Made by a program: the position numbers and the translations under genes. Below are positions 48,035 through 51,106 of a stretch of DNA of 63,237 nt, piece after piece. Positions within the stretch are counted from its first letter, which is position 1; every line of letters begins with the position of its first letter. The notes beneath the pieces are model-generated. The model ran no database searches. It was not told where the DNA came from and saw only the letters and a program-made list of their open reading frames with translations. Source of the stretch: a virus; IMG/VR virus record IMGVR_UViG_3300031249_000002, positions 1 through 63,237 of that record; one strand, written 5' to 3'.

Positions 48035-49046
48035 GGGTGCGCTTCTCCTTCCGGCGGTGCTCGGCCTCCTCGGATTCACCGAGACGCCGGCAGGCGCTCG
48101 CGACGGCCTTTGCGGCCAGGAGCTCGGGGGTGATCGCGAGATGGCGACAGGTGGCAGCGATGGCGCGAGCGGCAAGAAGAGTCGGCTCCATCGCGCGGCA
48201 AACCTTCTCGACGACGAGCACGGCGCGAAGCTCCTCGGTGCGTCGCTTATCGCTTTGGCCGCGCTGGTATTCGCGCTCCCAGCGGCCACCGTCGTCAGCG
48301 GGGCGCGGTGGCGCATCCAGAGCTCGGGGCGGCCGTCGCAGGGCCGGTGCGCCTGTCAGGGCGTTTTCCCGAGGCTCCCTCAGGCGCTCGCCGCACAGCT
48401 CGCATTTCCTGGGCAATCGCTCCGATCGTGCCCAGTTCGACAACAACTGCCGCGTGGCCGTCGAGCAGATGGGGCACGTCACCTGGCGCGCCACAGGAGT
48501 CCCTGTCCACGGTCCGACATGCCATCGGCTACGCTCCGCCGCCGCTGCGTCCCACTCCCGATGGGCAGCCCGAACCCCGATCTCCGTCTTCCGGCGCGCG
48601 CTCTGAATGATCCCCGCCCGCCCCTCGTAATCTTTGTCCAGGCACGCAGCCAGGAGCCTCCCGACATGATCGGATCGGAGCACGTGCAAGGCTGCACTTG
48701 CCAGCATCCCCAGCTCACCATCGAGCCGCGCGCGCTGGATCGGTGGCAGGTCGTTCCGCGGCGCGTAGTGCGCCATGAGGACACCTTGGCCGTCGCGACT
48801 CACCAGGAACCAGACCGGCGACCAGCGCCTCCACTTCGCCGCCGGGCTATCGCCCGCGCACCAGCCAGCCTGATAGTCCGAGTACGGGTCCGTGTTCGGA
48901 ATCCCGCTCGCGCCGCCATGCTCGAGGGCGCTAATCGTGCCGCCGAGCGTTCCCTTCATCCCGAGTTCCGCCGCAGCGAAGTGTAGCCACCAATGGATCG
49001 CTGGGTTCCACAGCTCACGGTCGGATTGTTTGTCGATCGCTTGCAT
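48024..49046 (-). CDS. Zinc-ribbon protein downstream of the RNA array
   Basis: 340 aa from ATG 49046, preceded by GAGGAGAAACCC. Residues 1-120 are globular (WNPAIHWWLHFAAAELGMKG, LGGTISALEHGGASGIP). CPICSTATRQL and CELCGERL (about 190-222) form a zinc ribbon, and the C-terminus is a long basic helix region. No family recognised. It stands between early and late genes where phages often keep a late-gene activator, and it begins 77 bases beyond the last array hairpin. Confidence 0.6.
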   Translation of the reverse strand: MQAIDKQSDRELWNPAIHWWLHFAAAELGMKGTLGGTISALEHGGASGIPNTDPYSDYQAGWCAGDSPAAKWRRWSPVWFLVSRDGQGVLMAHYAPRNDLPPIQRARLDGELGMLASAALHVLRSDHVGRLLAACLDKDYEGRAGIIQSARRKTEIGVRAAHREWDAAAAERSRWHVGPWTGTPVARQVTCPICSTATRQLLSNWARSERLPRKCELCGERLREPRENALTGAPALRRPPRALDAPPRPADDGGRWEREYQRGQSDKRRTEELRAVLVVEKVCRAMEPTLLAARAIAATCRHLAITPELLAAKAVASACRRLGESEEAEHRRKEKRTRAA

Positions 49047-49082: not shown

Positions 49083-49106
49083 AGCCCTCGCGCAAGCGGG
49101 GGTTTT
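49083..49106 (+). terminator. Terminator-like hairpin beside the array
   Basis: AGCCCTCGC-GCAA-GCGGGGGTT followed by TTTT on the plus strand: a GC-rich stem with a GNRA loop and T run. No plus-strand gene precedes it, so it may act on antisense transcripts, or the stem may serve the minus-strand RNA instead. Confidence 0.4.
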
Positions 49107-49122
49107 CGTTTCAGGTCATGGG

Positions 49123-49820
49123 TCCGCCGTCCTGGTCATGAACCAACGCGCCCCGAAGGCGCGACGGCGGAGGGTGCGGTGCTGTTCGGTGCGGCGCGTT
49201 GCGACGCGGAACTGGGCGACACGTGGCGTGGCGGTGCGCAGCCTTGAGTAGCGCCCCGTCGAGCCGGAAGGCGCGACGAGGCTCGGTGCGGCGCGCTGCC
49301 CAGCGGAGCGCTGCCTGTCGGTGCAATGCATGGCGGCGCGGAGCTGCGGATAGTGCCCAGCAGAATCGAAAGACGCTGCTGGGCTCGGTGCGATGCGATG
49401 CGGTGCGGTGCGGAGCGGTGCGGCGCGCTGCGAGGCGCGGCGGCGCGATGCGGAGCGACGGATAGGGCCCACGCATCCCGAAAGAGAGGCGTGGGCTCGG
49501 TGCGGTGTTTTGCGTGGCGCAGCGCAGCGCTGCGTTGCGGAGCGGTTCGCGGCGAAGCGTTGCGACGAATAGCGCCCTCGCTTCCCGAAAGAGAAGCGAG
49601 AGCTTGGAGCGGTGCGAGGCGGCGCGGAGCGCAGCGCCGCAGCTCGTTGCGAGGCGGCGCGATGCGGAGCGGCGCGATGAATAGCGCCACGACGATCCGA
49701 AAGAACCGTCGTGACTCGGTGCGGGGGCGGTGCGGGGCGGCGCGGGGCGCTGCGCTGCGGAGCGATGCCGTGCGAAGCGAGAAATAGTCGCTCCGCCCGG
49801 GAGCAACCCAAGGCGGAGCG
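49123..49820 (-). ncRNA. Array of seven hairpins joined by CNNCG pentamer linkers
   Basis: Stems (plus-strand arms): 49789-97/49812-20; 49686-94/49707-15; 49574-83/49594-603; 49467-74/49489-96; 49355-63/49376-84; 49253-61/49274-82; 49123-31/49163-71. Arms are 8-10 bp; sequences differ but complementarity is kept, and the middle loops share a CTTTCGG-like core. Linkers start CTAT(T/C), run 14-16 in-register pentamers CNNCG (about 68 of 91 fit exactly), and end CACCGAG. Non-Watson-Crick stem pairs are mostly G-U on this strand. The last element is a three-way junction. The DNA begins 7 bases after the stop of the upstream gene, so it should be transcribed with it. Confidence 0.85.
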
Positions 49821-49826
49821 TCGGAA

Positions 49827-50441
49827 TCATGCAGCCCTCGACTTCTCGGTGCGCTGTCCCGATCGCGGGACAGCGGCCTCGGCGCGAGCCTCGAAGTCAT
49901 CGAGCGCATTCGACGACTTCAGCAGCTCGCGCACCCCACCCCAGATGGGTCCGAGCTTATCGTTGTGCCGGAACGCTCGGAATTCGTCGAGCCACCCGTT
50001 CAACCGATTCACGCCCTCGGCGAACTTCTGATCGGTCATGTAGGGCGAGGCCTGCGCAGTCTCCGTCGCGACGTAGCCGCGACGCGCCTCCGGGCTCGGC
50101 TTCAGATTGACCATGATCGGCTGCACCTCGCGCTTACCGGTCTCGAGGACGATCTCGATTCGGATGGAATTGACCAGCTTCCTGGCCAAGGTCTCGCGCG
50201 CCGCCGCCAGGATAGCCGAGTCCGATCGCCCGAAGATGTAGCGGTGAAGCGGAGATGACTTCTTGGATGCGGCTTCGACGATCTTCTTCGCGGAGAGCCC
50301 CGTAGGGGTCCCGTCGCCGTTGACTTTGGCGCCGAGGCGGATCAGCTCCGCGCCGACGGTTTCCGCCTGTTCCTGCGTCAGCCTGAATTCCGGACAGATC
50401 TGACGCGGAACGAAACGGCGCTGCTGCGCGCGACTCTTCAC
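49827..50441 (-). CDS. Phage protein next to the RNA array, helical
   Basis: 204 aa. MKSRAQQRRFVPRQICPEFR is basic. The middle has YIFGRSDSAILAAARETLAR and LVNSIRIEIVLETGKREVQP. The C-terminal 60 residues are helical (QKFAEGVNRLNGWLDEFRAF). This protein travels with the next gene (four-base overlap) in many phages as I recall, function unknown. Its stop lies directly before the array, so it is a candidate partner. Confidence 0.6.
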   Translation of the reverse strand: MKSRAQQRRFVPRQICPEFRLTQEQAETVGAELIRLGAKVNGDGTPTGLSAKKIVEAASKKSSPLHRYIFGRSDSAILAAARETLARKLVNSIRIEIVLETGKREVQPIMVNLKPSPEARRGYVATETAQASPYMTDQKFAEGVNRLNGWLDEFRAFRHNDKLGPIWGGVRELLKSSNALDDFEARAEAAVPRSGQRTEKSRAA

Positions 50442-51106
50442 GAAACCGCCTTGAGGGGCGAGCCCTGCTTCTTGACCTCGAACTTCTTGATCGTGAAGGT
50501 GCCATGAGAGCCGCCCTTCTTTGAGCCGGGGCGCCAGTTACCGATCCCGATGACCCGTCCCGCCATGTCGATCAGCGAGTGACATTCCGTTGGATTCATC
50601 GCGTTCAGAAGGAGATCGATCTCGAAGTCGATCGACCAGTCGACGTACTCCGGGCGGATCACGAGCCGGGGAGCTCCTGTCGGGCCAGAGTTGCGGCCGA
50701 CGTCTTCCCGCATGCGGCACTCCTTGAAATTGAGCGTCAGCATGTCGCCCACGATGTTGATCGCTCGGTTCGCGCCGGCCTTCGAAAGCTCCGGGAGCTC
50801 GACCGCGCCATCGCGAATGCACGAGCGAATGCCGCCCGCGGGGAAGGCGTCGCGCCCCTTGGCGTCACGGTACTTCGCGCGGTCGAAAACTGCTTTTTTC
50901 GTGACCGGCAGCGGCTTCACGTCGCCCGTGGTGACTGCTGTCTCGCCGTACTTCTTGTCCAGCCCAGCGCCGGACGGTGTGAGCCGATCTACGAGAAGCC
51001 GCTCGCCGGCGATCTGTACGTGGATGCGTGCCACGTATACCTCCGGTTTCTTGTTGAGCTCGTACGTTACTAGCTTCTTCTGCGTTTCTTTCTTCTTCGG
51101 TGCCAT
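50438..51106 (-). CDS. Conserved phage protein with RAMP-like motif
   Basis: 222 aa, start after a perfect AGGAGG. Signatures: DAFPAGGIRSCIRDGAVELP (about 86-105) and, near the end, IRPEYVDWSIDFEIDLLLN and IGIGNWRPGSKKGGSHGTF. The first resembles the IPGSSxRGxLR ligand loop of RAMP/Cas7-like RNA-binding proteins and the last a Gly-rich loop. That likeness is visual only. The family is widespread in phages without an assigned function. Confidence 0.6.
   Translation of the reverse strand: MAPKKKETQKKLVTYELNKKPEVYVARIHVQIAGERLLVDRLTPSGAGLDKKYGETAVTTGDVKPLPVTKKAVFDRAKYRDAKGRDAFPAGGIRSCIRDGAVELPELSKAGANRAINIVGDMLTLNFKECRMREDVGRNSGPTGAPRLVIRPEYVDWSIDFEIDLLLNAMNPTECHSLIDMAGRVIGIGNWRPGSKKGGSHGTFTIKKFEVKKQGSPLKAVS

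Follow-up and report, generated by a model that had tools for sequence, protein, structure and literature searches.

The closest described counterparts of the locus studied here are the Viral Interference Programmable Repeat (VIPR) systems, CRISPR-like RNA-guided systems that phages use as a weapon against rival phages (PMC13142463; bioRxiv 2026.04.26.720920, a 2026 preprint). By the preprint's account, a VIPR system combines a RAMP protein with vrRNAs of ~100 nt, each made of 9–16 pentamers (YNNGG, with a fixed GGY and a variable NN) and a structured 3′ tail, and the NNs target double-stranded DNA with one base skipped (PMC13142463). The preprint distinguishes seven types, which share GGY/NN 'or a related consensus' and vary in array architecture, and the tail of the vrRNA is called invariable (PMC13142463).

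The window, i.e. the whole 63,237-bp stretch of DNA that was analysed, is the complete IMG/VR virus record IMGVR_UViG_3300031249_000002, which also codes for a GpA-type large terminase, a DnaB-like helicase and a primase. On its minus strand, flanked by two genes of that strand, one with its end at 49827 and the other with its start at 49046, lies an array that reads as NNCGC pentamers in register with hairpins in between. We conclude that this stretch is almost certainly the vrRNA array of a phage VIPR system, with about six vrRNAs. An earlier note on this DNA had reported knowing of no described element of such shape; the vrRNA arrays presented in the preprint match it (PMC13142463), and a striking phage sequence without prior explanation can now, very probably, be explained as a VIPR guide array.

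The array has two levels of order, pentamers and hairpins, and its earlier description as non-coding DNA with both was confirmed. The step CGCnnCGC occurs 48 times, whereas dinucleotide-preserving shuffles contain it 8.7 times on average and at most 19 times. Among periods of 3–12, the counts are highest at 5 (48) and at its double, 10 (44), and every other period has 11 or fewer. Parsing of the minus strand gave 62 exact pentamers in six tracts, which supports the register reported before (CNNCG, NNCGC on the minus strand) but lowers the reported count of about 68 exact pentamers out of 91. The guide tracts hold 12–15 pentamers each and the units measure 102–112 nt. Two motifs had been ascribed to every linker: the starting CTAT(T/C) is present after five of the six hairpins, with CTACTC after the sixth, and the closing CACCGAG is present in all but one of the five full modules. 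Overlapping ORFs of 231–257 aa are found in all three minus frames, as would be expected if a repetitive protein rich in Arg, Pro and Ala were encoded here; however, the three frames are open because CNNCG pentamers seldom allow stops, no codon phase exists in the 5-base period, and the covariation of the hairpins acts at the RNA level, leaving a coding function with a negligible probability.

Six strong hairpins were identified (49790–49819, 49686–49715, 49574–49603, 49467–49496, 49355–49384 and 49253–49282), each of exactly 30 nt, with 13 layers and a 4-nt loop, and with 12–13 of the 13 layers paired. Their single-hairpin z-scores range from −2.5 to −4.9, and they are spaced 102–112 bp apart. 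The earlier note had counted seven hairpins at intervals of 102–120 bp; the seventh (49130–49180) does not stand out from shuffled sequence (z −0.26), and the narrower spacing is that of the six supported ones. The stems covary, with both-side changes in 11 of the 13 layers and 94.9% of the cells paired, a level reached by none of 500 shuffles on any measure, in agreement with the claim that stems differ from module to module and stay self-complementary. Sliding the stem partners reduced pairing to 38–47%, and setting the 5′ arm of one module against the 3′ arm of another reduced it to 58%. A covariance model of the hairpin returned no convincing copy beyond the window.

Judged from base pairing and loop sequence, the RNA strand of the array is the minus strand. 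On this strand, U–G pairs complete hairpins 2 and 3 as perfect 13-bp stems; the plus strand has A/C mismatches at the positions concerned. In sister arrays, the CGC strand mostly has GCGA loops between its guide tracts, with TTCG second, and GCGA (GNRA) and TTCG (UUCG) are usual stable RNA tetraloops. It is the gain of G–U pairs, together with the sister loops on the same sense strand, that led us to this assignment; the plus strand, whose loops read GAAA, was considered as the RNA and rejected on the same two grounds. In one sister locus (L071), the VIPR array lies on the minus strand relative to that contig, and its guide tracts alternate with near-identical hairpins that have GCGA or TTCG loops. 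As a separate observation, the plus strand at the left edge of the window array (49083–49113) carries a GC-rich hairpin followed by TTTTCGTTT; it is terminator-like with respect to antisense transcription into the array and is absent from the scanner's list.

Along the minus strand, the array begins with hairpin H1 (49790–49819; 30 nt, 12 of 13 layers paired), which separates the probable accessory gene from the first guide tract. The six predicted vrRNAs, all on the minus strand, are vrRNA 1 (49686–49787; tract of ~12 NN, 3′ tail of ACCGAG and hairpin H2), vrRNA 2 (49574–49684; 14 NN, tail hairpin H3), vrRNA 3 (49467–49572; 13 NN, tail of ACCGAG and hairpin H4), vrRNA 4 (49355–49465; 14 NN, the cleanest tract, tail of ACCGAG and hairpin H5), vrRNA 5 (49253–49353; degenerate tract of ~12 NN, tail of ACCGAG and hairpin H6) and vrRNA 6 (49140–49250; degenerate tract of ~12–14 NN, weak tail hairpin with z −0.26). 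A covarying 30-nt hairpin is thus found 3′ of five tracts as their structured 3′ tail. ACCGAG followed by a hairpin is probably the vrRNA 3′ tail, because the same ending terminates guide tracts in three other loci (L044, L118 and L007). Tracts 5 and 6 (49140–49353), the most distant from vipr, show many more triad changes than tracts 1–4, in a decay-like manner.

The second gene upstream of the array, vipr (50438–51106, minus strand), encodes a 222-aa RAMP/Cas7-like protein of phrog_4652 with a predicted guide-RNA-binding role and the G-rich loop GIGNWRPGSKKGGSHGTF. From homology and structure modelling, we identify its product as Vipr, a RAMP protein of Cas7-like fold. The window protein alone matches chain D of the SUSP1 Vipr structure (PDB 36pp_D) with a phmmer E-value of 6.3e-5; the same chain is matched by the family profile at 3e-14 and by a sister-family profile at 1.2e-8, and 36pp, 'SUSP1 Vipr protein', is the only PDB entry that the family profile found. 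A scan of 40 family members matched every one of them to phrog_4652, which is annotated as of unknown function. The AF2 model of the window protein (pLDDT 75) gave a Foldseek match to Csm3/Cas7 (E 4e-6), and a modelled family member (pLDDT 94.5) matches Cas7 of type VII/III CRISPR complexes (E 2.7e-7). Between vipr and the array, the gene at 49827–50441 (minus strand, 204 aa, phrog_15946 with a PHROG match of 6.2e-7) is, from its family and position, a probable vipr accessory gene and may be one of the VIPR accessory genes vap1–6. Its start overlaps the vipr stop codon, and a member of its family lies directly after vipr in mycobacteriophage Saal as well (BLASTP 30% identity, E 3e-8); a protein search of viral contigs recovered no relatives of it. 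The reading frames of vipr and of this gene are both open and intact.

The locus can be compared most directly with the type II VIPR of Escherichia phage SUSP1 (PDB 36pp), as far as the preprint presents that system. Both are phage-borne, with a single RAMP protein (a direct sequence match), one accessory gene adjoining vipr, pentamer tracts of a fixed triad and a variable NN, ~100-nt units and a structured 3′ tail. The window differs in its triad, which is CGC and not the GGY of the characterised systems, although CGC may fall under the 'related consensus' of the preprint. It also differs in having about six guides, all downstream, and in its tail, a 13-bp hairpin whose fold is kept and whose sequence varies by unit. 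The accessory proteins are from different families, phrog_15946 in the window; in Felixounavirus ESCO50, the gene after vipr is phrog_5926.

By analogy with the published VIPR systems, transcription, processing, loading, target reading and repression may be pictured as follows. The minus strand would be transcribed through vipr, the probable accessory gene and the array, giving about six vrRNAs of ~100 nt, each with 12–15 pentamers of a fixed CGC and a variable NN, followed by ACCGAG and the 13-bp hairpin tail. Vipr belongs with Cas7 among the RAMP proteins, and its subunits would coat the tract, with one subunit holding the CGC triad of each pentamer. The NNs, left exposed, would recognise a gapped sequence in double-stranded DNA (NNxNNxNN in SUSP1). 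Genes of competing mobile elements would then be repressed by the Vipr–vrRNA complex. If the window system also skips one base, the predicted gapped targets are CTnTTnACnATnTCnAGnAGnCCnGCnCCnAC (guide 1), ATnGCnTCnATnGCnCTnAAnGCnGGnTGnTCnGCnCTnAC (guide 2), GTnAAnTTnCGnACnTCnAAnAGnTGnTGnCAnAAnAC (guide 3), GTnTCnATnGCnCGnCTnAGnGCnACnTCnACnACnATnAT (guide 4), GCnTCnGCnCAnATnACnCAnAGnTCnTGnAGnGC (guide 5) and AAnTGnACnCAnCAnGTnCCnTCnGTnAAnGCnAC (guide 6).

Searches for targets of guides 2, 3 and 4 gave no assignment. In IMG/VR, guide 4 as a one-base-skip pattern of 9 NN had no match, and guides 2, 3 and 4 as 8-NN patterns had 15, 17 and 11 matches, in which the other NNs agree only at the level of chance. 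With skip lengths of 0–3 over 1.65 Mb of collected loci, guides behaved no differently from reversed guides and favoured none of these lengths, and the guide of the Ancylobacter array had no match in 120 genomes of its family. The lack of IMG/VR targets for guides 2, 3 and 4, like the degeneration of tracts 5 and 6, would suit a VIPR-derived array that has become inactive or been repurposed, e.g. as a leader or decoy RNA whose binding to Vipr serves autoregulation and not DNA targeting. We consider this unlikely, since four tracts are clean and differ from one another in NN content in a guide-like manner, both protein genes are intact, and most environmental targets would be absent from the collection anyway.

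Related arrays were sought in viral contigs as eight GCGNN units, which gave at least 119 stretches. Many of the viral stretches among the matches listed are long arrays with free NN variation (entropy 2.5–3.8 bits), and a scan of bacterial genomes found almost only plain GCGNN microsatellites, with NN entropy near 0 in most. With dozens of related arrays in viral contigs, one of the outcomes that the earlier note would have taken as refutation, an absence of such arrays elsewhere, does not apply. A vipr homolog is encoded in 72 of the 89 viral loci with diverse NNs (IMG/VR, among the matches listed) and in both such bacterial contigs (Ancylobacter and Roseomonas). None was found in 116 bacterial plain-microsatellite loci or in 43 background viral loci included for another reason. 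Among the matches listed, most loci have their nearest array within 100 bp of the vipr homolog, and in 73 of 74 the vipr coding strand is also the CGC strand; the locus sample was chosen by the GCG pattern itself, and these linkage counts are not independent events because some contigs are near-copies of one another. The positive controls behaved as expected of VIPR loci, with GGYNN in a Felixounavirus (a SUSP1 relative) and GGCNN in mycobacteriophage Saal, each on the gene strand beside phrog_4652. The one exception in strand (L037, 5405–5872) reads GCGNN on the vipr strand, with a GCCAGTGGTGGGGA-like spacer repeated between units; its triad may be a third kind, or its array may be transcribed in the direction opposite to vipr.

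These results also bear on whether the array could be a degenerate pentanucleotide microsatellite grown by replication slippage, with hairpins formed by chance. Plain GCGNN microsatellites do occur and make up the bulk of the bacterial-genome matches. However, at least 14 of the 16 dinucleotides are used at the variable NN of the window array, the entropy of the sister arrays is far from the near-zero value of most microsatellites, and CGC stays in register. We give the microsatellite origin an extremely low probability and regard it as refuted by the linkage to vipr and the covariation of the stems.

CRISPR-Cas, TIGR arrays, codons and simple repeats had been dismissed as explanations before, and our analysis agrees. 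Class 1 CRISPR-Cas effectors (Cas7/Csm3) resemble the modelled Vipr in backbone-protein fold, in the G-rich loop and in the periodic grip on guide RNA that is expected of it. The window array differs in that no conserved direct repeat of CRISPR form is present, the stems differ by unit and the neighbouring genes are not cas genes; by analogy with VIPR, its guide would be read in gapped pairs and not contiguously. TIGR-Tas systems likewise have phage-borne guide arrays with short units, but no Tas protein is encoded among the scanned neighbour genes and, to our knowledge, VIPR pentamers are not TIGR repeats. An early idea, that a TRAP-like or other ring protein binds RNA with a 5-nt period, was displaced by the RAMP protein beside the arrays. 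Hammerhead-interspersed VIPR arrays carry hammerhead ribozymes between vrRNAs, whereas the window array has no Rfam ribozyme match; Rfam ribozymes were absent from the window at gathering and permissive thresholds, and from 17 sister and control loci at the gathering threshold. The array stretch contains no tRNA or Rfam family, and BLASTN of the array against phages gave no match.

The CGC triad is shared with arrays in other IMG/VR contigs and in an Ancylobacter prophage (L171/L038), which have CGCNN on the gene strand beside vipr; they differ from the window in their Vipr subfamilies and spacers, and their guides often flank vipr on both sides. Over 84 vipr loci, picked by the GCG pattern, the main triad is CGC in 76, GGC in seven and GCG in one. 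The seven loci with GGC on the gene strand (L013, L048, L059, L092, L018, L083 and L105) share their PHROG with the CGC loci. A tree of 30 Viprs places the window protein with those of Saal and UmaThurman and with four environmental Viprs (support 95/92), although its exact position is unsure because of its long branch. The group containing the window, Saal and UmaThurman mixes GGC and CGC arrays, and the triad label changes at least three times on well-supported branches of the tree. It is possible, though we propose it only tentatively, that the window contains a VIPR subtype not described before, in which Vipr grips CGC and recognises the tail by length and shape alone (13 bp and a 4-nt loop, freely covarying), and that related Viprs have exchanged GGC for CGC, or the reverse, on several occasions. 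If this is true, the triad specificity of Vipr would be evolvable and would yield orthogonal systems. Different triads with related Viprs may help to decipher how Vipr reads its guides and to design orthogonal tools, and a simple DNA signature, runs of CGCNN or GGCNN beside phrog_4652, points to dozens more systems in public viral contigs.

Saal and its relatives (Cheoctovirus) have the vipr family and the downstream phrog_15946 in common with the window; they differ in their GGC triad, and their proteins are 27–30% identical to those of the window. Their GGCNN arrays (2550–2810 in the Saal locus, L240) lie with vipr and phrog_15946, genes 51–52, which are annotated as 'hypothetical protein', and isolates of these phages exist.
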